Of a stretch of 64,000 bases of DNA, positions 36,331 through 48,606 are shown in pieces (position 1 is the stretch's first letter; the number at the start of each line of letters is the position of its first letter). A model generated the notes under the pieces. The model was not told where the DNA came from, searched no databases, and saw only the letters and a program-made list of their open reading frames with translations. Both the position numbers and the translations under genes were made by a program. Origin of the DNA: Bacteroidota bacterium (GTDB lineage Bacteria > Bacteroidota > Ignavibacteria > Ignavibacteriales > Ignavibacteriaceae); the NCBI GenBank assembly GCA_021777835.1, contig JAJYDC010000001.1, positions 186,001 to 250,000 on the forward strand, in the 5' to 3' direction.

Positions 36331-37332
36331 ATGAGAATAGAGCAATTGAGTTTTGAAAGTATTGATTGGACAAACTTTATACTAAATGATGCAAAGAGTA
36401 ATATATTTTCATCACCTGAAATGAATCAAGCTTTTAATATTTCAAATGGCTCAGAAGTTTTCCCATTATTTGCTATTGAGAAAGAAGAAATAGTTGCTGC
36501 TGTTTTTCCGGTACTTGTGAAAATTAAAACTCCTTTTCCAAATAGGTTTACTAATAGGATGATACTTTATTCCTCACCGGTATATTTAAGAAACCAGTTG
36601 GGCATTCTCGGCTTACAAATGCTTTTTAATGAAATTAAAAGAATTGCCAAAAGAAAAGCTTTATTCGTTGAAATTCGTAATTCCGAATCTTTTCCCGTTG
36701 AAGATTGTTTGGACTTAGTTAAAGGATTTAAATATGTACCTTATCAAAATTATATTCTTGATTTGAAAAAAGGAGAGGACAATATATGGAAATCTTTTGG
36801 ACCTAGAACCAGGAATGGATTAAGACAAATCGAAAAACGAGAGCTAATAGCTAGAGAGATTTATGATAATGAATTGAATTCGGTAGTTTCCTTACTAGAG
36901 AGTTTATATCTGCGTAAAAATATCCCGTTTATTGATAAATCTATTTTCTTTAATGCATATTCAATATTAAAGCCTAAAAATTACATAAGAGTATTAGTGA
37001 TTGAATTGAACTCTCAAATCATTGCTGCAAGAATAACTCTAAATTATAATAGAACGATATTCGATTGGTATGCGGCTTCAGATTTTAGGTATAATTCGTA
37101 TTTGCCTAATGATGTTTCCGAGTGGAATTCGATTAAATGGGGATGTTCAAATAATTATGAGATATATGATTTTGGAGGGGGAGCTATTAAAGGTCAGGAA
37201 TATGGACCGGCAAAATTTAAGGAAAAATTCAAGGGCGAGTTAGTTGAATATGGTCGATATAGATATGTCATTAACAAACCAGTTTTTCTAATAGGATCAA
37301 AATTATATGACTTTCGAGTATCAAAGAAATAA
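36331..37332 (+). CDS. FemAB/GNAT-like aminoacyl or acyl transferase
   Basis: 333 residues. The C-terminal part matches the Acetyltransf_6/FemAB pattern: WKSFGPRTRNGLRQIEKREL, VLVIELNSQIIAARITL, FDWYAASDFRYNSYLPNDV and YEIYDFGGGAIKGQEYGPAKFKEKF. FemAB-type proteins move amino acids from aminoacyl-tRNA to peptidoglycan precursors; relatives in exopolysaccharide loci are thought to attach acyl or aminoacyl groups to sugars. It ends the first run of the locus; a gap of 545 bp follows. Confidence 0.78.
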   Translation: MRIEQLSFESIDWTNFILNDAKSNIFSSPEMNQAFNISNGSEVFPLFAIEKEEIVAAVFPVLVKIKTPFPNRFTNRMILYSSPVYLRNQLGILGLQMLFNEIKRIAKRKALFVEIRNSESFPVEDCLDLVKGFKYVPYQNYILDLKKGEDNIWKSFGPRTRNGLRQIEKRELIAREIYDNELNSVVSLLESLYLRKNIPFIDKSIFFNAYSILKPKNYIRVLVIELNSQIIAARITLNYNRTIFDWYAASDFRYNSYLPNDVSEWNSIKWGCSNNYEIYDFGGGAIKGQEYGPAKFKEKFKGELVEYGRYRYVINKPVFLIGSKLYDFRVSKK

Positions 37333-38921: not shown

Positions 38922-39761
38922 TTGGTAAGAAAGAAAAATTATATCATCGTATCATTATTAATTATTTGCGTGATTATTTTTTACCCTCAACTTAAAAGAA
39001 ATGAAAACTGCATGAATTACGATATAGCTAATGAAATTAAAACATTTAGAAATGAAAGAATCTTCTTTGGGCATAAATCGGTTGGGAGCAATATTCTTCA
39101 AGGAATAAGCGAGATAAGTATTAAAAATAATAATGAAAGGATAGCAATCCTGAATATAAACGATGCAAGTGAATTGCCTAATACTTATTTACTTGAGGCA
39201 AATATTGGCGACAATGGAAATCCAAAAGGCAAAATAGATGAGTTTGCCAAACTAATTAATCAAATGGCTCAAAATGGACTAACAATTGCAATGATGAAGT
39301 TATGTTTCGTTGATCTAAATGAGAATTCCAATATTGATGATATTTTCAATTATTATTCGGCAAAAATTGATTCCTTAAGAATCATATATCCTGATCTTAT
39401 TATAATTCATTTTACAGTACCACTAACGTCAAAAAGGACCATGTTTTCTAGGGTGAAAGATTTTCTTAAAAGGAGGTCTAATAAGTCTATGTTAGATAAC
39501 GTTATCAGAAATAATTATAATAAACTTATATTTTCAAAATATCCCAATGATTTAATCTTTGATCTAGCAAAATTAGAGTCAACATTTCCCGATGGAACAC
39601 GCGAACAATTTATCTATAATGGGAAGCATTATAATTCTTTAGTACTCGACTACACTGACGACGGGGGGCATCTTAATGAAAAGGGAAGACAAATAATAGC
39701 CAAAAATTTAATTTCTTTTATAGCTGATAAGGTCATCAGCAAACAAAGCAAAAGCAATTAG
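38922..39761 (+). CDS. Membrane-anchored SGNH-hydrolase-like protein
   Basis: 279 residues from TTG 38922, with AAAGG 6 nt upstream. One N-terminal helix (about 6-22) places the rest outside the inner membrane. The body fits an SGNH group in which the first block reads IFFGHKSVGSNIL instead of GDS; a middle block IAMMKLCFVDL and the last block DDGGHLNEKG supply the expected Asp and His. It probably removes or transfers acyl groups on the polymer. It stands just ahead of a hexapeptide acyltransferase, an acyl carrier protein and two amidotransferase-type genes. Confidence 0.7.
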   Translation: MVRKKNYIIVSLLIICVIIFYPQLKRNENCMNYDIANEIKTFRNERIFFGHKSVGSNILQGISEISIKNNNERIAILNINDASELPNTYLLEANIGDNGNPKGKIDEFAKLINQMAQNGLTIAMMKLCFVDLNENSNIDDIFNYYSAKIDSLRIIYPDLIIIHFTVPLTSKRTMFSRVKDFLKRRSNKSMLDNVIRNNYNKLIFSKYPNDLIFDLAKLESTFPDGTREQFIYNGKHYNSLVLDYTDDGGHLNEKGRQIIAKNLISFIADKVISKQSKSN

Positions 39762-39813
39762 TATTGATAAAAAACAAACAAGCTAATAAATTCATTATTG
39801 AAACAGTTTAAGA

Positions 39814-40407
39814 ATGAGAATCCTATTTAAAATATTAGCAAGAATAAACGCTTATATAAGATTGCGACATTTTAATAGCCTGTTGCAAAATTATCTTAAT
39901 AATGGATTAAAGTTAGGCAAGAATGTTACAATTATGCCTGGTGCTTATATTGACGCTAAATATCCGTATTTAATTAGTATTGGAGACAATTGCTCTTTGA
40001 GTAATGGCGTAACTATTCTTGCGCATGATGCTTCGACATATAAATTCACAAATGGATATACAAGAGTAGGGAAGGTAGAGATTAAGGATAATTGTTTTTT
40101 CGGTACTAATGCCATAATACTTCCGGGTGTTACTATTGGTCCAAATGTGCTAATCGCAGCAGGTTCGCTTATAAATAAGAATATCCCTCCTAACTCATGC
40201 GTTGCGGGAGTTCCTGCCAGAATATATCAAAGATTTGATGAGTATATAGAACAGCACAAAGAGGCGTTAAAAAAAGATCTCTCATTCGAGTACAAAGAAT
40301 TTGAATCACCCGATAATGACTTTAAGGAAAAAATAAGAAATCTGGTTGAAAATGATTTTATCTATGTGAAAGGTTACACAGGAAAATTTCCATGGACAAT
40401 TACTTGA
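39814..40407 (+). CDS. Hexapeptide-repeat O-acyltransferase
   Basis: 197 residues. Left-handed beta-helix of the maltose/galactoside acetyltransferase type: LGKNVTIMPGAYIDA, IGDNCSLSNGVTILAHDAS (catalytic His), IKDNCFFGTNAIILPGVTIGPNVLIAAGSLI, then NSCVAGVPARI. It acylates a sugar hydroxyl using acetyl-CoA or possibly the acyl carrier protein encoded next. Start ATG 39814. Confidence 0.88.
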   Translation: MRILFKILARINAYIRLRHFNSLLQNYLNNGLKLGKNVTIMPGAYIDAKYPYLISIGDNCSLSNGVTILAHDASTYKFTNGYTRVGKVEIKDNCFFGTNAIILPGVTIGPNVLIAAGSLINKNIPPNSCVAGVPARIYQRFDEYIEQHKEALKKDLSFEYKEFESPDNDFKEKIRNLVENDFIYVKGYTGKFPWTIT

Positions 40408-40457
40408 GACTAAATAATGCAACGTTATATAAAAATTCCCTTAATAATTAATATACT

Positions 40458-40462
40458 GGAGG
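40458..40462 (+). promoter_or_regulatory. Strong ribosome-binding site of the acyl carrier protein
   Basis: GGAGG, 5-nt spacer, ATG at 40468. It excludes the upstream ATG 40417, which would add 17 unconserved residues. Confidence 0.75.
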
Positions 40463-40467
40463 CGCGA

Positions 40468-40743
40468 ATGGAACAGATTGAAATTCTAAAAGAATTTGTA
40501 ATTAGTAATTTCCTTTTTGGGAAGAGTACAATACTAGAATATGATACGGATTTTCTTGAGAAAGGGATTATTGATTCAATAGGGATACTTGAATTAGTTT
40601 GTTTTGTTGAAGAAACATTTAATTTCAAAGTGCTTGACGATGAAATATTGCATAATAATTTTTCTTCATTGACTAAACTGAATAATTACATAAATCTTAA
40701 ACTTGGTAAACTTCAAAAAGTGGTTCAAAAATGTGCGGTATAG
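40468..40743 (+). CDS. Acyl carrier protein-like (phosphopantetheine-binding)
   Basis: 91 residues, start fixed by GGAGG at 40458. The segment FLEKGIIDSIGILELV carries the phosphopantetheine attachment serine (Ser37) in the DS(I/L) context of carrier proteins; FVEETFNFKVLDDEI is helix III. The asparagine synthase gene begins inside its last 13 nt, so both are probably made together. In such a locus it may carry an amino acid or acyl group for transfer to the polymer. It is not next to fatty acid genes, so it is not the housekeeping ACP. Confidence 0.85.
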   Translation: MEQIEILKEFVISNFLFGKSTILEYDTDFLEKGIIDSIGILELVCFVEETFNFKVLDDEILHNNFSSLTKLNNYINLKLGKLQKVVQKCAV

Positions 40744-42740
40744 CGGGCATAGCCAATTTAACGGAGCCGGGGTCTATATTAATTAATTCCGTGGGAATGA
40801 TGGCAAGCTCCTTAAGGCATCGAGGACCAAATGAATCTGGTATATATATTGATGATTGGCTTGGCTTTGCGCAAACAAGACTAAGTATAATAGACTTACT
40901 GGGAGGGTCGCAGCCTATTCACAATGAAGATAAATCACTATGGATAGTCTTTAACGGTGAGATCTATAATTATCTCGAATTGAGGAGAAGCTTAGTTGAA
41001 GCAGGACATAAGTTCTATACTCTTTCTGATACTGAAGTTATACTCCATCTTTATGAAGATGAAAAGGAAAATTGTCTAAGCAAACTTAACGGTCAATTTG
41101 CATTTGCAGTATGGGACTCAACAAATAAAGAACTTTTTATATGTAGAGACCGTGTTGGTAAGAAGCCATTATACTATACTATCAACGGTAACCAATTTTT
41201 CTTTTCTTCTGAGATAAAAGCATTATTTTCAAATGATCAAATAGACCGCGAAATAGATTATATTTCTCTAAATCAGATATTTACGTTTTGGACAACCTTA
41301 CCGGGAAGGACAATATTCAAGGACATAAAAGAACTTCCAGCCGGTTCTTATCTTAAATATAAAAATAGCAAGCTAACCATAACTAAGTACTGGGATTATG
41401 ATTTTGCACTTCCGGATAACCTTATTAATTATTCGACTGACGATATTGTAAGCAAATTAAAAGAATTACTTATAGATGCAGTAAGGATACGTTTAAGAGC
41501 AGATGTGCAAGTCGGTTCCTATTTGAGCGGCGGGCTGGACTCTTCAGGAATAACAGCTTTAATTAAAAAAAACTTTAATAACGAATTAAGCACTTTCGGA
41601 ATTAGGTTTGAAGAGGAGTCCTTTGATGAAGGTGAATATCAGTCGGCAATGGTTTCTAATTTAAATGTTGATCATACTGAAATATTTGCGTCAAATAAAA
41701 AAATAGGTGAATTACTGCCGGACGTAATGTGGCACTGTGAAATTCCATTATTAAGATTATCACCTGTACCGCTTTTCATGCTTTCAAAATTAGTAAACCA
41801 GAATGGATTCCGTGTAGTATTAACCGGGGAAGGGGCAGACGAGGTATTTGGCGGATACAATATTTTCAAAGAAACACTAATAAGATCATTTTGGGCTAAG
41901 TACCCGGATTCTGAATTGCGACCTCGATTATTAGAAAGACTTTATCCCTATATTTTCAAGGACGCAACAAGCAAAGCAAATCTAAAATCATTTTTCAAAT
42001 TAGGCATTGATAATCCAAATGATTTGTTATTTTCTCACATGGTGAGATGGCAAAATACTTCAAGAATCAAAAGGTTTTTCAGTGATGATTTAGCAAATGA
42101 AAATAAAGATTATGAACCGTATTCAGATCTAAAGGAAATTCTTCCGGAAAAATATTCCAAGTGGGATGCATTATCGAAAGCTCAATATTTGGAAATGAAA
42201 ATATTTCTCTCAAATTATTTACTTTCTTCTCAGGGGGATAGAGTTGCAATGGCGCATTCTGTAGAAATTAGGATGCCTTATCTCGATTATAGGATAATTG
42301 AATTTATGAGCCTAGTTCCTTCATACTTGAAGATAAGGGGCTTGAATGAAAAATCAATATTAAAAAAAGTATTTAAGGATATACTCCCTGACACAATAAG
42401 GCAAAGAGTAAAACATCCGTATAGAGCCCCAATAAAAAACAGTCTACTTAACAATAATTTGGATTATGTAGACGAATATTTGTCCGAGGAAAGTATTAAT
42501 AAATATAGACTTTTTAATTCTTCGATGGTGACAAAGCTAAAAGAAAAATTGACAAAATCCAATTCTGCTAGTGAAATTGACAGTATGGCTTTAGTAGGGA
42601 TTCTAACTACTCAAATTCTAAGTGATATGTTTGGTGATAACTTTCAATACAGGTTAAATAAACCCATAACATTTGATAGAATATATGACAGGAGAAGTAT
42701 CTCAATGTCTGAAGAATTATTATATACAGAAAGAAAATAA
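40731..42740 (+). CDS. asnB: Glutamine-hydrolysing asparagine synthase-like amidotransferase
   Basis: 669 residues. N-terminal Ntn glutaminase begins MCGIAGIANL, with Cys2 as nucleophile after Met removal; HRGPNESGIY and FNGEIYNYLELR follow. The C-terminal synthetase has the PP-loop SYLSGGLDSSGITAL and VVLTGEGADEVFGGY. It converts aspartate to asparagine or amidates a related carboxylate, using glutamine and ATP. Length is typical. The 13-nt overlap with the carrier protein and the NadE-like gene after it suggest amidation of a carrier-bound or sugar-linked acid rather than general asparagine supply. Confidence 0.88.
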   Translation: MCGIAGIANLTEPGSILINSVGMMASSLRHRGPNESGIYIDDWLGFAQTRLSIIDLLGGSQPIHNEDKSLWIVFNGEIYNYLELRRSLVEAGHKFYTLSDTEVILHLYEDEKENCLSKLNGQFAFAVWDSTNKELFICRDRVGKKPLYYTINGNQFFFSSEIKALFSNDQIDREIDYISLNQIFTFWTTLPGRTIFKDIKELPAGSYLKYKNSKLTITKYWDYDFALPDNLINYSTDDIVSKLKELLIDAVRIRLRADVQVGSYLSGGLDSSGITALIKKNFNNELSTFGIRFEEESFDEGEYQSAMVSNLNVDHTEIFASNKKIGELLPDVMWHCEIPLLRLSPVPLFMLSKLVNQNGFRVVLTGEGADEVFGGYNIFKETLIRSFWAKYPDSELRPRLLERLYPYIFKDATSKANLKSFFKLGIDNPNDLLFSHMVRWQNTSRIKRFFSDDLANENKDYEPYSDLKEILPEKYSKWDALSKAQYLEMKIFLSNYLLSSQGDRVAMAHSVEIRMPYLDYRIIEFMSLVPSYLKIRGLNEKSILKKVFKDILPDTIRQRVKHPYRAPIKNSLLNNNLDYVDEYLSEESINKYRLFNSSMVTKLKEKLTKSNSASEIDSMALVGILTTQILSDMFGDNFQYRLNKPITFDRIYDRRSISMSEELLYTERK

Positions 42741-42788
42741 GTAAGTAGATAAATTTTTATCCATGATAATTGAAAATGAGGTAAGACG

Positions 42789-43784
42789 ATGCAATTTACA
42801 AAAGACTCTATCCTAATTGATCCGAAGACGGAAGTTGTCAAGATAATTGAAAATATTAGAAGTAACGTTTTCAATACACTCAAAAAGAGAGGCGGTGTTG
42901 TTGGAGTAAGCGGAGGAATTGATTCTTCCGTGGTTTTGGCTCTAACCGTAAAGGCTTTGGGCAGCGACAAAGTAGTAGCCGTTATGCTTCCCGAGAAAGA
43001 ATCAAGTGGCGACAATATTAAACTCGTCAATCAATTAATATATAAAGTAGGCGCCGGAGATATAATTGAAACTGTTTCTGAAAATATAACTGATACTTTA
43101 ACCGGGTTCGGCTGCTATCGGAGAAGAGATGAAGCGGTAAAAAGAATATTTCCGGAATATGACTCTTCCTATAAAATGAGAATAATCCTTCCTCATAATC
43201 TGCTTGAAGGTAATAACTTAAATCTATTTTACCTTGAAATAATATCGCCTGAAGGTGAAAGAAAAAAAACTAGACTCCCGGTTAAAGAATATTTGCAGAT
43301 CGTTGCTGCATCTAATTTTAAACAGCGAAGCAGAATGAGCATGTTATATTATCATGCAGAATTAAAAAATTATGCAGTCATAGGTACACCTAACAAAAAC
43401 GAACATGAATTGGGTTTTTTTGTGAAGTATGGAGACGGCGGCTCTGATATAACTCCTATCAAGCATCTATTTAAAACTCAAGTTTATCAGATAGCAGATT
43501 ATTTGGGAATTCCTGCTGAAATAAAGAAGCGAATTCCTACCACTGATACTTACAGTGCAATTCAGACTCAGGAGGATTTTTTCTTTAGAATATCATTTGA
43601 CTTGTTAGATAGAATATGGTTCGGATTAGAAAATAATATCTCAACTGACAAAATAGCATCTGAGCTGAAACTTACAATTGAACAAGTTGAAAATGTTATA
43701 GCAGATATTAAAAGAAAAATTAATAATACCGAGTATTTAAGAAAATTCCCAATTGATTTAGAACCTGCTATAGAATTAATATAG
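42789..43784 (+). CDS. nadE: NAD synthase-like amidotransferase (PP-loop, no glutaminase domain)
   Basis: 331 residues. The PP-loop SGGIDSS is at residues 41-47 in VVGVSGGIDSSVVLALT, and VIGTPNKNEHELGFFVKYGDGGSDITPIKHLFKTQVYQIADYLGIP matches the NAD synthase C-terminal signature. It lacks the nitrilase domain, so it would use free ammonia. A long insert (about 95-170) with FGCYRRRDEAV and LLEGNNLNLFYLEIIS is not usual for compact NadE. It may be the true NAD synthase, but its position after a carrier protein and AsnB suggests a dedicated adenylating or amidating role in tailoring. Confidence 0.72.
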   Translation: MQFTKDSILIDPKTEVVKIIENIRSNVFNTLKKRGGVVGVSGGIDSSVVLALTVKALGSDKVVAVMLPEKESSGDNIKLVNQLIYKVGAGDIIETVSENITDTLTGFGCYRRRDEAVKRIFPEYDSSYKMRIILPHNLLEGNNLNLFYLEIISPEGERKKTRLPVKEYLQIVAASNFKQRSRMSMLYYHAELKNYAVIGTPNKNEHELGFFVKYGDGGSDITPIKHLFKTQVYQIADYLGIPAEIKKRIPTTDTYSAIQTQEDFFFRISFDLLDRIWFGLENNISTDKIASELKLTIEQVENVIADIKRKINNTEYLRKFPIDLEPAIELI

Positions 43785-43952: not shown

Positions 43953-45032
43953 ATGCTTTTTAAGTTCAGCATTGTTTGTATTCTTTGTTTTGTATCTATT
44001 TCATTCGCACAAATAATCAGCATAAGAAAGGGGGTTTTTTTAGCACATTCTACTGGAACAAATATTTGGGGACCTAATGGAAGTACTACAAGTGTGCCTG
44101 AAGAGATTATTAAGTATAATACTTCGCATAACTTAATAGGCACAGATCAATTTAATATTATAAAAGAAGACTGGCCAACAAATCCATGGACAAATGAATG
44201 GGCAAGATGGCATCAAATATTTTACAGCAAAGACTCTACTGCAGATATCCAACCTTATTTAAATAATTACGGATTGATCATTATTAAATCTTGTTTCCCG
44301 AGTTCCGGAATAAGTACTTGGGGTACTCCTGCTGATACATTGGACCCCGAGCGTAAATCTATATACAACTATAAATGGCACTGGCGTAGCTTTATTCGAA
44401 AAATGGAAGCTCATAAAGAAATATTTTTTGTAGTTTGGACAAACGCACCATTAGCCATTAAGAGTACTGATGATAACGAGTCCTTCCTATCAGATCATTT
44501 TTCAAGATGGGCTAAGGATACCTTAGCAGCAGGATTAGATTCAGCCTATGGCGCATTTCCTAAAAATGTCTATGTATTTGATTTCTTTCATAAATTAGCC
44601 GGAACAGACGGCAAACTGCCCTTAAAATACTCTGCAGACACTACTGATAGTCATCCTAACTCAGCAGCTACAGAGTTTGTAGCCCCTCAGTTTGCTAAAG
44701 AGATTTTAGATGCAGCACTGCAATATAAAATATCCTTCTCAGATGGGTCAAAAAGTGTAAGTTCTCAGCTTAACTATTCATTGCAACAAAATTATCCAAA
44801 CCCATTTAACCCGTCAACCTTAATTGAATATTCAATACCCGAGAATGCTCTCGTTAAGATTTACTTATATGACATTTTAGGGAACAAAATTAGACAAATT
44901 GTTAACGGTTTTAAGACTTCCGGACAATATAAAATTCAGTTAAACATGAAAGGCTTACCAAGCGGTGTCTATTTTTATAAAATGGAGACTTTGAAGTATA
45001 ATAATTTTAAAAAACTTATTCTATTGAAATAG
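43953..45032 (+). CDS. Secreted SGNH-like protein with T9SS sorting domain
   Basis: 359 residues. Signal peptide MLFKFSIVCILCFVSISFAQ. The body (about 25-265) has GVFLAHSTGTNIWG, LIIIKSCFPSSG and DTTDSHPNSAATEF, a block pattern like SGNH hydrolases with HST in place of GDS. A T9SS type A sorting domain ends it (about 275-359: QQNYPNPFNPSTLIEYSI, SGVYFYKM, KKLILLK). Expected at the cell surface, possibly acting on the acylated polymer. The Shine-Dalgarno AAGGAG precedes the ATG. Confidence 0.8.
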   Translation: MLFKFSIVCILCFVSISFAQIISIRKGVFLAHSTGTNIWGPNGSTTSVPEEIIKYNTSHNLIGTDQFNIIKEDWPTNPWTNEWARWHQIFYSKDSTADIQPYLNNYGLIIIKSCFPSSGISTWGTPADTLDPERKSIYNYKWHWRSFIRKMEAHKEIFFVVWTNAPLAIKSTDDNESFLSDHFSRWAKDTLAAGLDSAYGAFPKNVYVFDFFHKLAGTDGKLPLKYSADTTDSHPNSAATEFVAPQFAKEILDAALQYKISFSDGSKSVSSQLNYSLQQNYPNPFNPSTLIEYSIPENALVKIYLYDILGNKIRQIVNGFKTSGQYKIQLNMKGLPSGVYFYKMETLKYNNFKKLILLK

Positions 45033-46168: not shown

Positions 46169-47092
46169 ATGAATTATCAAATAAGACATTTCGCAATTAA
46201 ATTAGTTACATTTTGTTTTCTATTTCTAATAATATTTATATTAACATTATTCTCCTTTTCAGTAATCATTTATCAGAGTAAATCCATATATGCAATTGAT
46301 AAATCTTGTAATATTCTAATCTTAGGCGATTCGCACACAGAATGTGCTCTTAACGATACACATTTACCTCACTCGGTAAATATTTCAGCTAGCGCTGATG
46401 CATATATCTACAGCTATTTGAAAATGAAAAAACTCATTAATAATAATCCTCAAATTGATACTATTTTGCTAGGATATGGATATCATAATTTAAGCCCTAG
46501 TCTTGAGGAGTGGGTTTATGGTGATAAATTTATCCTAAATAAAGTTCCGACATATGCCTGTTTCATGAAAAATTCAGAAATTCAAAATGTAATAAAATAT
46601 AATCCTCAATTGGCGCCTTCTCTAATATTAGATATTTACAGATCTGCCTTTAAATTATCTGTTAAGTCAATTTTTGGTCAAAATTATAATCAGGCCGGCT
46701 TTGGCGGCTTTAGACGTTTGACTTACAATAAATTAAAAGAAGATATCCAAAGGCTCAGTAGAAAAAAAGATCATGATGAGGCAAGTTTTAATTCTTCACC
46801 TAGTCAAGAAAAGTATTTACTAATGATATCAAATTATTGTAAAAATAATAAAATTAAATTAATACTAATAGCTACACCTATATATAAAAACATATTAAAG
46901 AGTTCAAAGAATTTGAAAGTATTATATTATGAATATTATAACAAATATTTAACCGATAATGTTTTATTAGATTATTCCGGAGAAAATATGCCGGACTCGT
47001 GTTATGCTGATAGTGAACATCTGAATCGTTTAGGTGCAAAAGATTTTTCGTTAATTGTTGATAATAAATTGCATTGTTATCAAAATAAATAA
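46169..47092 (+). CDS. SGNH-fold O-acylation protein (AlgX/AlgJ-like role)
   Basis: 307 residues. One N-terminal membrane helix (about 10-35). SGNH blocks: ILILGDSHTECAL (Ser nucleophile), LLGYGYHNLSP, and CYADSEHLNRLGAKDF (Asp and His). It faces the periplasm. Next to the MBOAT gene 50 nt downstream it probably works like AlgX or AlgJ, taking an acyl group from the MBOAT protein and placing it on the polysaccharide. The role is inferred from the pair. Confidence 0.78.
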   Translation: MNYQIRHFAIKLVTFCFLFLIIFILTLFSFSVIIYQSKSIYAIDKSCNILILGDSHTECALNDTHLPHSVNISASADAYIYSYLKMKKLINNNPQIDTILLGYGYHNLSPSLEEWVYGDKFILNKVPTYACFMKNSEIQNVIKYNPQLAPSLILDIYRSAFKLSVKSIFGQNYNQAGFGGFRRLTYNKLKEDIQRLSRKKDHDEASFNSSPSQEKYLLMISNYCKNNKIKLILIATPIYKNILKSSKNLKVLYYEYYNKYLTDNVLLDYSGENMPDSCYADSEHLNRLGAKDFSLIVDNKLHCYQNK

Positions 47093-47142: not shown

Positions 47143-48606
47143 ATGCTCTTTAATTCATTACAGTTTGGTTATTTTTTTATTATAGTAACTACACTATATT
47201 TTGTAACACCGCATAAAATGCGCTGGGTGCTATTGTTAGGTAGTAGTATCTATTTCTACATGGCATTAATACCTATTTACATACTTATTTTGGCATTTAC
47301 TATACTTATAGACTACTTTGCTGGAATTTTTTTAGAAAAACTAAAAGATAATAATAGGAAATGGTTTCTAGTATTAAGTATAATTGCAAATATAGGGGTT
47401 CTAGCAGTTTTTAAATATTACAACTTTATTGATAGTAATATAAATTTCCTATTTCATTCCTTCGGAATTAACACCTCAATTCCTTTTATAAATATAATTT
47501 TGCCAATCGGATTATCTTTCCATACATTCCAGGCAATGAGTTATACAATAGAAGTATATCGTGGTCGTCAGCAAGCCGAACATAATTTAGGTATATACGC
47601 ACTATATGTAATGTTCTATCCTCAATTAGTTGCGGGACCTATTGAAAGACCACAGAACCTATTACATCAATTCTACGAAAAACATTATTTTGACTACAAA
47701 AGAGTAACAGACGGATTGAAACTAATGGCTTGGGGGCTATTTAAGAAGGTTGTTATTGCTGATAGACTTGCATTGGTTGTAAACCAGGTTTACAATTCAC
47801 CATCAAATTATGTCGGACTTCAACTAGATCTTGCAACTATATTTTTTGCATTTCAAATATACTGTGATTTTTCTGGTTACTCAGATATCGCAATTGGTGC
47901 CGCTCAAGTTATGGGTTTTAAATTAATGAATAATTTTAACATGCCATACTATTCTAAATCAATTTCTGAATTTTGGAAAAGATGGCATATATCCTTATCT
48001 ACTTGGTTTAGAGACTACCTGTACATTTCTTTAGGAGGTAATAGGGTTAAAATTCCGCGTTGGTATTTTAATCTATTTTTTGTGTTTTTAGTAAGCGGTC
48101 TTTGGCATGGGGCAAATTGGACATTTGTCATTTGGGGTGCATTACATGGATTTTATCTAATATTTTCTATAGTCTCAGCTAAGTCTAGAAAAATAATTTC
48201 TGATATAATTGGATTGTACAAATATCCTAGCTTAGTAAAAATATTACAAGTGATAATAGTATTCATTCTTACTGATTTTGCTTGGATATTTTTTCGTGCG
48301 CAGAATATGTCAGATGCTCTTTATATAATTACTCATGTCTTTTCAGGGTTCAATCAAATTCATAGTGCAAGTAATATAGTGTATTTATTGAAAGAACTCG
48401 ACTTGACTTTGTATGAATTTAGTATCGCTCTTTTTTCAATTGCTATTCTTGAAATCCTTCAACTAAAACAAAGGAAAATAAGGGTAAGGGACTATATTTC
48501 AGCTAAACCAATATGGGTAAGATGGTCTGCATATTATGCTATCATTATTTATATAATATTATTCGGGGTGTTTAATAAATCACAATTCATTTACTTCCAA
48601 TTTTAA
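47143..48606 (+). CDS. MBOAT-family O-acyltransferase (AlgI-like)
   Basis: 487 residues with about 11 membrane helices. AlgI signatures: ILPIGLSFHTFQAMSYTIEVYRG, MFYPQLVAGPIERP, FQIYCDFSGYSDIAIGAAQVMGF, ISEFWKRWHISLSTWFRDYLYI and VSGLWHGANWTFVIWG, which holds the catalytic His. It moves an acyl group from a cytoplasmic donor across the inner membrane for use by the SGNH-fold partner encoded before it. Confidence 0.93.
   Translation: MLFNSLQFGYFFIIVTTLYFVTPHKMRWVLLLGSSIYFYMALIPIYILILAFTILIDYFAGIFLEKLKDNNRKWFLVLSIIANIGVLAVFKYYNFIDSNINFLFHSFGINTSIPFINIILPIGLSFHTFQAMSYTIEVYRGRQQAEHNLGIYALYVMFYPQLVAGPIERPQNLLHQFYEKHYFDYKRVTDGLKLMAWGLFKKVVIADRLALVVNQVYNSPSNYVGLQLDLATIFFAFQIYCDFSGYSDIAIGAAQVMGFKLMNNFNMPYYSKSISEFWKRWHISLSTWFRDYLYISLGGNRVKIPRWYFNLFFVFLVSGLWHGANWTFVIWGALHGFYLIFSIVSAKSRKIISDIIGLYKYPSLVKILQVIIVFILTDFAWIFFRAQNMSDALYIITHVFSGFNQIHSASNIVYLLKELDLTLYEFSIALFSIAILEILQLKQRKIRVRDYISAKPIWVRWSAYYAIIIYIILFGVFNKSQFIYFQF

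Follow-up and report, generated by a model that had tools for sequence, protein, structure and literature searches.

A carrier protein, an AsnB-type amidotransferase and a divergent NadE-like enzyme recur together across bacterial loci: a candidate carrier-linked amidation pathway

Among described systems, the exopolysaccharide (EPS) set of XrtA/PEP-CTERM combines a ligase (TIGR03098), an amidotransferase (TIGR03108) and a carrier, partner types like those of the locus analysed here, and is accompanied by a PLP decarboxylase. To our knowledge that set has no NadE, and its function is likewise without assignment. Of six ligases from relatives of our locus, four matched TIGR03098 better than any other NCBIfam model and two had it in second place; TIGR03108 ranked second for the AsnB of the window (the whole 64,000-nucleotide stretch of Bacteroidota DNA that was analysed). 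However, the scores stay below the cut-offs of that set, at 289–497 against 592 for the six ligases of relatives and 424 against 817 for the window AsnB. The Dlt system follows a similar logic of ligase, carrier, MBOAT and SGNH protein, and the window does contain an MBOAT with an FxYxxF ending. The combination that marks Dlt, a D-alanine ligase with carrier, MBOAT and SGNH protein, is nevertheless incomplete, since the window is without a ligase and an MBOAT lies near 9 of the 96 loci compared below; we also know of no AsnB or NadE in Dlt. OxyD and DdaH are AsnB-type enzymes that form a primary amide on the acyl group of a natural product. We know of no NadE-like partner for either, and the likeness to the window AsnB drawn here is one of enzyme type.

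The five plus-strand reading frames of the initial annotation were all recovered, in the order SGNH-like protein, hexapeptide transferase, carrier, AsnB and NadE-like protein (Table 1; the carrier frame had been listed as 40417–40743). The 13-nt overlap of the carrier and AsnB frames was confirmed by recomputing it from the sequence; it is also present in the same-genus loci L023 and L024, with 22 nt in L026. The serine of the carrier is residue 37, as had been claimed, when the internal ATG at 40468 is taken as the start, but not when the 108-aa frame is read from 40417. A GGAGG lies 5 nt upstream of this ATG, which, judged from the sequence, is probably the start. The window carrier had no Pfam match at E<=0.01 and matched NCBIfam carrier-protein models only below cut-off. 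A hydrophobic-D-S motif is common to the 81 carriers that were picked from the 96 loci; carrier matches in ORFs of at least 230 aa (L067, L110 and L179) were excluded. The match in L179 (236 aa), excluded by size, may be genuine. What looked like a carrier-AsnB fusion in L067 was set aside as a likely deletion or misassembly, since the ORF leaps from the carrier into the middle of AsnB.

Table 1. Features of the locus and its surroundings, in window coordinates
Feature	Coordinates	Strand	Basis
FemAB-like protein; occasional neighbour, context	36331..37332	+	Pfam FemAB
Membrane-anchored SGNH-like protein, GHxSVG...DGGHLN family	38922..39761	+	alignment A3; predicted fold
Hexapeptide-repeat acyltransferase, candidate cytosolic transfer step	39814..40407	+	Pfam Hexapep
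Acyl carrier protein, Ser37 in IIDSIG	40468..40743	+	start revised from 40417; sequence, ribosome-binding site
AsnB-type glutamine-dependent amidotransferase	40731..42740	+	TIGR01536; Cys2, PP-loop intact; co-inherited with NadE-like gene
Ligase-less gap, 48 nt	42741..42788	+	~530-aa AMP-forming ligase here in L023-L026
NadE-like PP-loop enzyme, PRK00876 subfamily	42789..43784	+	NF002048, residue contrasts, AlphaFold
Exported SGNH-related protein, T9SS sorting tail, HSTG...SHP family	43953..45032	+	homologous to 38922 protein
GDSH-motif protein; possible SGNH partner of MBOAT; context, not core	46169..47092	+	sequence
MBOAT acyltransferase, C-terminal FIYFQF; context, not core	47143..48606	+	Pfam MBOAT

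The window AsnB scored 499.6 bits against TIGR01536 (cut-off 267), a model that also matches amidotransferases other than asparagine synthase. It has GATase_7 and Asn_synthase domains, begins MCGIAG, which places a cysteine at position 2 as first noted, and retains its PP-loop, so that a Cys2 glutaminase and a PP-loop synthetase are both predicted. Among the full-length AsnB proteins of the loci, the narrow patterns that were searched found the start motif in 67 of 74 and the PP-loop motif in 65 of 67; at least five of the seven start-motif misses visibly begin CGL or CGF.

The census covered 96 PRK00876 loci, window included, of which 61 were well flanked (6 kb on each side). L123 (partial), L124-L131 (not PRK00876), and L052 and L116 (duplicates) were excluded, and the 80 named loci are the best 80 of a longer list, biased to close relatives. 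Within 9 kb of the NadE-like gene, the well-flanked loci had a carrier in 59 cases, an AsnB in 57 and an AMP-forming ligase in 55; 50 of them had all three, in ten gene orders, and the partners shared the NadE strand in 47–50 of these 50. No carrier was detected in L069. AsnB was absent locally from L070, L082, L098 and L175, and the genome of the last (G314) carries an AsnB on another contig. By comparison, 20 control loci of ordinary nadE genes, from 20 of the same genomes, had none of these partners. A matching AsnB was found in 17 of 18 genomes with a PRK00876 NadE and in none of 62 others, while among 395 genomes the NadE was present in 13, the AsnB in 13 and both in 12; with genomes taken as independent, the chance of such co-occurrence is 2e-16 and 7e-21, respectively. 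Distance correlations gave r of 0.42–0.77, which none of 500 permutations reached, a result that fits co-inheritance and equally shared descent. The carrier, AsnB and NadE recur together across loci, as the initial annotation needed them to, and the view that they form a single co-inherited unit is supported. PrmC-like methyltransferases (near 10 of the 96 loci) and class III aminotransferases (near 5) are accessory, not core.

The NadE-like protein scored 422.9 bits against NF002048/PRK00876, above the curated cut-off of 313, and is also matched by Pfam NAD_synthase. Its AlphaFold model (pLDDT 93.2) has the NadE fold, with VIA-align Z scores of 28.5 to 3fiu and 28.4 to 2e18. The SGGxDS PP-loop is found in all 96 PRK00876 sequences, and both PP-loops of the window block, reported at the outset, are in place. 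The 96 were contrasted with 28 ordinary NadE proteins, classed by sequence (20 from the control loci and eight from L124-L131). In window numbering, Gln179, Phe210, Thr254 and Tyr110, the last within an insert, occur in 96/96, and position 317 is Leu or Ile in 95/96 but Lys in 28/28 of the others. The ordinary residues Ala179, Tyr210, Leu254 and Lys317, in columns with a putative role in deamido-NAD binding, are kept in 27–28 of the 28 and replaced in 95–96 of the 96. In the printed alignment, the contrasted columns of 3fiu hold the ordinary residues Ala, Tyr, Leu and Asp. A reading of 'TQE' for the ordinary QTDE motif was rejected, the alignments putting Thr, Ser or Gly in the ordinary Asp column of PRK00876. 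Because the ATP site is kept but residues fixed in ordinary NadE are lost and an insert is gained, 'NAD(+) synthase' is probably a misname for PRK00876. Another NAD synthase is encoded in all 27 genomes found to carry a PRK00876 NadE in the family and phylum samples of the window, as the initial annotation required; that the PRK00876 protein is an extra, divergent paralogue is supported.

The window differs from its relatives in the AMP-forming ligase. All four same-genus relatives with a PRK00876 NadE (L023-L026) have a ligase between AsnB and NadE, accompanied in L025 by an aminotransferase, whereas none is present there in the window. A search of the same genome for a close ligase found none, the best having 33% identity; on contig C66 there is a ligase of 482 aa that shares 53% identity with a second ligase in L026. 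Five other well-flanked loci are without a ligase (L030-L032, L082 and L093). AMP-forming ligases are a huge family, and a nearby match need not be a partner.

A compact form of the set occurs in rhizobia. On pSymB of Sinorhizobium meliloti, the order is asnB-acp-ligase-nadE, the carrier with a DST motif directly before the ligase, and the same four genes are grouped in Mesorhizobium ciceri. No sugar-polymer gene was found directly adjacent to either cluster; the M. ciceri cluster has a glycosyltransferase gene ~3 kb downstream, on the opposite strand. We infer that the pSymB carrier and ligase, in a S. meliloti 1021 record without locus tags, appear to be SMb20651 and SMb20650, which would make that pair part of apparently the same module as the window set. 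According to the accessible part of one report, the two genes are cotranscribed and acylation of the carrier depends on the ligase (PMC7232532). The published accounts, as far as their text was available, treat the ligase and carrier only and call the carrier function unknown or needing study. The asnB of M. loti R7A (msi323) was dropped as a second genetic lead: in the portion of the source seen it is grouped with the phosphonate gene pepM (PMC3538637), and it may not be the PRK00876-linked AsnB.

With a probability of about 0.6, we regard the window block as a copy of a conserved four-part, carrier-linked amidation pathway. In this pathway, the AMP-forming ligase would load a carboxylic acid on the dedicated carrier protein; AsnB, with ammonia from glutamine, and the PRK00876 enzyme would each use ATP to activate an acyl oxygen and would add nitrogen. 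The outcome would be an amide-bearing group, either bound to the carrier or released from it. The window genome, with no adjacent ligase, would have to rely on another ligase or on a reduced pathway. The gene set, its co-inheritance, the divergent NadE and the intact ATP sites are seen directly, whereas amidation on the carrier and the order of steps are what we infer from them. The set lies among polysaccharide genes in the window and often elsewhere too, and from this context the group is probably passed on to a polymer in such loci. Transfer could proceed through a cytosolic hexapeptide transferase, or through MBOAT and SGNH proteins outside the cell, as in D-alanylation of teichoic acid. 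The initial annotation, which had proposed amidation on the carrier for a polymer, is thus borne out in part: the gene unit and its co-inheritance stand, context hints at the polymer step, and it had overlooked the ligase as well as, just downstream, the MBOAT and a further SGNH-like protein.

Transfer enzymes differ between loci, and none is universal. For the 38922 protein, neither Pfam nor NCBIfam gave a match at E<=0.01, but its predicted fold resembles SGNH/GDSL proteins, with GDSL esterases and PatB among them, and a hydrophobic helix stands at its start. Its family is found near 16 of the 96 loci and that of the 43953 protein near 11, the window included in both; the two alignments (A3 and A4) match with an hhalign probability of 92.7. 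Hexapeptide transferases are neighbours in 26 of 96 loci, again with the window. The 46169 protein had no Pfam match at E<=0.001 and one relative among the loci searched, in L024. The end of the window MBOAT corresponds to the acyl-shuttle motif of MBOATs, of FxYxxF type, described in the accessible text of PMC12148441, and such a motif is present in all nine MBOATs found in PRK00876 loci. Participation of the FemAB-like protein, also raised initially, gains little from a neighbour frequency of 6/61 in well-flanked and 9/96 in all loci, window included.

Other readings have to be weighed against the amidation pathway. The NadE-like gene might be a genuine NAD (or NMN) synthase, a spare one retained in such loci for NAD supply. 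The NadE fold, the PP-loop and several shared active-site residues are indeed retained, the nearest structure by VIA-align is an NMN synthetase from Francisella (3fiu), which ties with NAD synthetases, and NCBI labels PRK00876 an NAD(+) synthase; moreover, the third NadE isoform of the A. brasilense authors, going by the accessible parts of their papers, is probably a PRK00876 copy. We nonetheless consider this quite improbable, given the other synthase in 27/27 genomes, the near-complete exchange of residues that are constant in other NadE proteins and retained by 3fiu, and the lack of an evident reason for NAD synthesis to be linked to a carrier protein and an AsnB. It is improbable, too, that the copy in the window is decaying and does nothing now that its ligase is missing. 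The ligase is gone from its site with no close copy in the genome, but the reading frames of carrier, AsnB and NadE are undamaged and the first two still overlap, copies without a ligase are also seen in L030-L032, from the same GTDB family, and the C66 ligase, related to one in the L026 locus, could be set against the loss.

Uronamides in O-antigens are a known product of AsnB-type enzymes, and the window copy sits among glycosyltransferases; AsnB and the NadE-like protein might then amidate uronic acids or other sugar-nucleotide carboxylates, with the carrier and ligase acylating the same polymer separately. This is rather improbable, as no partner accompanies NadE more constantly than the carrier, which is present even in the four loci where AsnB is locally missing, and the grouped genes of S. 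meliloti and M. ciceri have no sugar gene directly beside them. Within the carrier-linked amidation pathway itself, a more specific version is tentative and on balance doubtful: AsnB and the NadE-derived enzyme would both act on the loaded carrier and convert a carboxylate to an amide and on to an amidine, or two carboxylates to amides, giving a new nitrogen-bearing surface-polymer substituent that the PrmC-like proteins, as amide methyltransferases, would methylate near ten copies, in an unrecognised bacteria-wide pathway.

The carrier-AsnB-ligase-NadE module was not found described in the open-access literature searched, nor in the accessible parts of the A. brasilense NadE papers; subscription papers were mostly outside this scope, and the module may have been published there. 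By score alone, 116 records of one plasmid collection contain a match at E<=1e-40. If the carrier-linked amidation pathway is real, the NCBI name 'NAD(+) synthase' is incorrect and obscures a conserved route, present in environmental, plant-associated and symbiotic bacteria, to a chemical group. In that case orphan genes of the model organism S. meliloti would also gain a function and the NadE family a new substrate class.

The genes for a carrier protein, an AsnB, an AMP-forming ligase and a NadE-like protein of the NCBI subfamily PRK00876 (NF002048) form a real, widely conserved module, which annotation divides into 'asparagine synthase' and 'NAD(+) synthase'. The genes are linked and the NadE has diverged from ordinary NAD synthases; the chemistry we infer is most likely that the ligase would load a substrate on the carrier, where AsnB and the repurposed NadE would amidate it.

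The five window genes of the initial annotation, ending with the NadE-like gene, are all present where it had placed them. Carrier translation most likely starts at the ATG at 40468, which is preceded by GGAGG on inspection, rather than at the ORF start at 40417, and Ser37, counted from this ATG, holds as the active serine. The 13-nt overlap of the carrier and AsnB genes is also real and recurs in L023 and L024, both from relatives of the same genus. The NadE-like protein scores 422.9 bits against the NF002048 model (cut-off 313). Its gene is surrounded by Wzc/Wzz-like, flippase-like, glycosyltransferase, FemAB-like and MBOAT genes, which marks a polysaccharide locus.

Features of the window and of other records
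Record	Start	End	Strand	Feature
Window	38922		plus	SGNH-like protein
Window	39814		plus	Hexapeptide acyltransferase
Window	40468		plus	Carrier protein (ATG)
Window	40731		plus	AsnB
Window	42789	43784	plus	NadE-like protein
Window	43953			T9SS-tailed protein
Window	48709	49686		Protein of this bacterial polysaccharide locus that matches Pfam GINT1_N (glucosamine inositolphosphorylceramide transferase 1, N-terminal) with E 5e-62
L182 (contig C66)	912	5556		Ligase (L026-related), SDR-like, GNAT-like, second ligase; named by eye
L184 (S. meliloti ml21)	8146	10022		AsnB read as two overlapping frames, unannotated; one annotated gene in RCAM1750 (L187)

The neighborhood census drew on the window, 17 family regions, nine phylum-sample regions and 71 of the best 80 named loci among the matches listed, a selection biased to close relatives. 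This gave 98 loci, or 96 once two duplicates were dropped, searched within 9 kb of NadE using profiles built for this analysis. Carrier, AsnB and ligase were found at 81, 82 and 87 of the 96, and all three at 66, with many loci shortened by contig ends; among the 61 flanked by 6 kb or more on each side, the counts were 59, 57, 55 and 50. Gene order takes ten forms among the 50 complete loci; AsnB shares the strand of NadE in all 50, the carrier in 48 and the ligase in 47. Of the eleven incomplete well-flanked loci, the ligase is missing from the window, L030-L032 and L093, AsnB from L070, L098 and L175, and both from L082, and no carrier was detected at L069; at L179 the sole carrier match lies in an ORF removed by the length filter. 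With the same profiles, the ordinary nadE loci of 20 genomes carrying the set (16 with 6 kb on both sides) gave 0 of 20 for every family.

The titles of the named-locus records include Ignavibacterium, Bacteroidales and other Bacteroidota, the cyanobacterium Pantanalinema, Chloroflexota, Acidobacteria, Zixiibacteriota, Planctomycetota, Nitrosomonadales, Azospirillum, Desulfobacterales, Myxococcales and Latescibacterota, among others. Polysaccharide genes are common near the set: clusters shared among the 71 named loci, identified from cluster representatives only, include Wzc-like kinases (12), sugar transferases (9) and polysaccharide export proteins (7). At two loci, L057 and L079, a pair of neighboring PRK00876 NadE genes is accompanied by a carrier and a ligase; no AsnB is visible, which would fit a second NadE standing in for it, but one side of each locus ends about 4 kb away. 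L105, from a record titled Bacillus subtilis SK6B4, has the gene order of the Chelativorans copies and may be a contaminating contig.

The grouping is also conserved in the sense that AsnB tracks the PRK00876 NadE. In the GTDB family of the window, this NadE occurs in 18 of 80 genomes and window-type AsnB (E<=1e-120) in 17, all among those 18; in the eighteenth, G047, AsnB is broken into three frames. The phylum sample (395 genomes, sharing G000, G034, G042 and G047 with the family sample) has 13 with the NadE, 13 with AsnB and 12 with both, the exceptions being G047 and G373, which has an AsnB match stopping at a contig edge and no PRK00876 NadE. The hypergeometric chance of such overlap, ignoring shared ancestry, is 2e-16 for the family and 7e-21 for the phylum. 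At locus L033, AsnB is broken into three reading frames with NadE and carrier open, reflecting either a decaying copy or sequencing error.

The reading of the initial annotation would have been refuted had this NadE been the only NAD synthase of its genome, which it is not. The own genome has another on the same contig (548-aa frame), and at least one further NadE-family match occurs in each of the other 26 genomes with the subfamily, making 27 of 27 across the family and phylum searches; the weakest among the 26 is a 647-aa frame in G188 (E 5e-29). The AlphaFold model of the window protein has the NadE fold (mean pLDDT 93.2, pTM 0.90), and the nearest structure by VIA-align is Francisella NMN synthetase 3fiu (Z 28.5, rmsd 2.5, 238 aligned), tied with the H. 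pylori and P. horikoshii enzymes. An alignment combined 96 sequences of the subfamily with 28 NadE from outside it. All of them share R180, R182, T200, E205, D216, K229 and the residues of the PP-loop. Position 179 is Gln in 96/96 of the subfamily versus Ala in 27/28 others, 210 Phe (96/96) versus Tyr (28/28), 254 Thr (96/96) versus Leu (28/28), and 317 Leu or Ile (95/96) versus Lys (28/28), a Lys that presumably contacts deamido-NAD in ordinary NadE. The Asp of the ordinary QTDE motif (27/28) is Thr, Ser or Gly in 96/96, and the subfamily has an insert of about 60 residues with Tyr110 (96/96), Arg112 (88/96) and Arg113 (86/96). At the Ala, Tyr, Leu and Asp columns, 3fiu has the same residues as ordinary NadE in the printed alignment, so PRK00876 is more diverged than 3fiu, a NadE relative whose record names it an NMN synthetase. 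Judged from these residues, ATP activation would be retained with other conserved positions altered, which suggests a different acyl substrate.

The interval between AsnB and NadE is just 48 nt long in the window. In all four same-genus relatives with a PRK00876 NadE, a gene scoring as an AMP-forming ligase lies in this interval, alone in L023, L024 and L026 and with a class III aminotransferase in L025. No close copy of the relatives' ligase exists in the own genome, where the four matches have 27-33% identity; a 482-aa ligase on its contig C66, 53% identical to a second ligase of the L026 locus, is a candidate substitute. An adjacent ligase is also lacking at L030-L032. In G314 (L175) the window-type AsnB is on a separate contig from NadE, which suggests a need for AsnB that does not depend on linkage. 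In L025, L027 and L028 the gene directly upstream of NadE, within the set, encodes a class III aminotransferase, which may point to an amine or amino acid as the acid or acceptor.

For the transfer step, the 38922 and 43953 proteins are homologous (hhalign probability 92.7), and in each of the two families a Ser and a His are fully conserved, consistent with a possible SGNH active site. The 38922 protein is predicted to be an SGNH protein, with PatB among the structure matches. The two types occur near 16 and 11 of the 96 loci, hexapeptide transferases near 26 and FemAB-like proteins near 9. MBOATs are found near 9, all with a C-terminal F-x-Y-x-x-F, which passages of PMC12148441 describe as the acyl-shuttle motif of MBOAT/SGNH pairs and DltX. 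Fused-motif MBOATs take acyl-CoA and not a carrier according to the same passages, which speaks against direct carrier-MBOAT hand-over here. PrmC-like methyltransferases lie near 10 loci; NPPY is present in 11 of 12 matches (one a duplicate), and the single one scored is narrowly above the PrmC model cut-off (201.6 versus 199.1). Since PrmC, by its model name, methylates a glutamine amide, these genes may by analogy hint that an amide is produced. As none of these neighbors occurs at every locus, the acceptor probably differs between loci.

With the L100 protein as tblastn query, matches were found in 116 plasmid records, mainly Sinorhizobium and next Azospirillum. S. meliloti and M. ciceri have contiguous asnB-carrier-ligase-nadE, with no polysaccharide gene directly adjoining the four in these records; the M. 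ciceri set is followed on the other strand by a gene for a PrmC-like methyltransferase and, 3 kb downstream, by one for a glycosyltransferase. Two Azospirillum records have glycosyltransferase and deacetylase genes, then the set, then a GNAT gene. The segment is in pSymB of S. meliloti 1021, in a record without gene tags. Passages of PMC7232532 report that the pSymB ligase SMb20650 is cotranscribed with the carrier SMb20651, that SMb20651 becomes acylated in E. coli expressing both with AcpS, and that the ligase is unable to substitute for FadD. SMb20651 is described in part of PMC12391972 as having a DST motif and unknown function, and in part of PMC5686131 as having a function that needs more study. 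The cluster carrier has the DST motif, and from replicon, gene order and motif we infer that the carrier and ligase of the cluster are SMb20651 and SMb20650. For A. brasilense, a passage of PMC7646526 reports a third NadE, lacking a glutaminase domain, in cell extracts. A close relative of the PRK00876 NadE is encoded on A. brasilense plasmids, so this isoform is probably of the PRK00876 type; if so, production of the protein would be shown.
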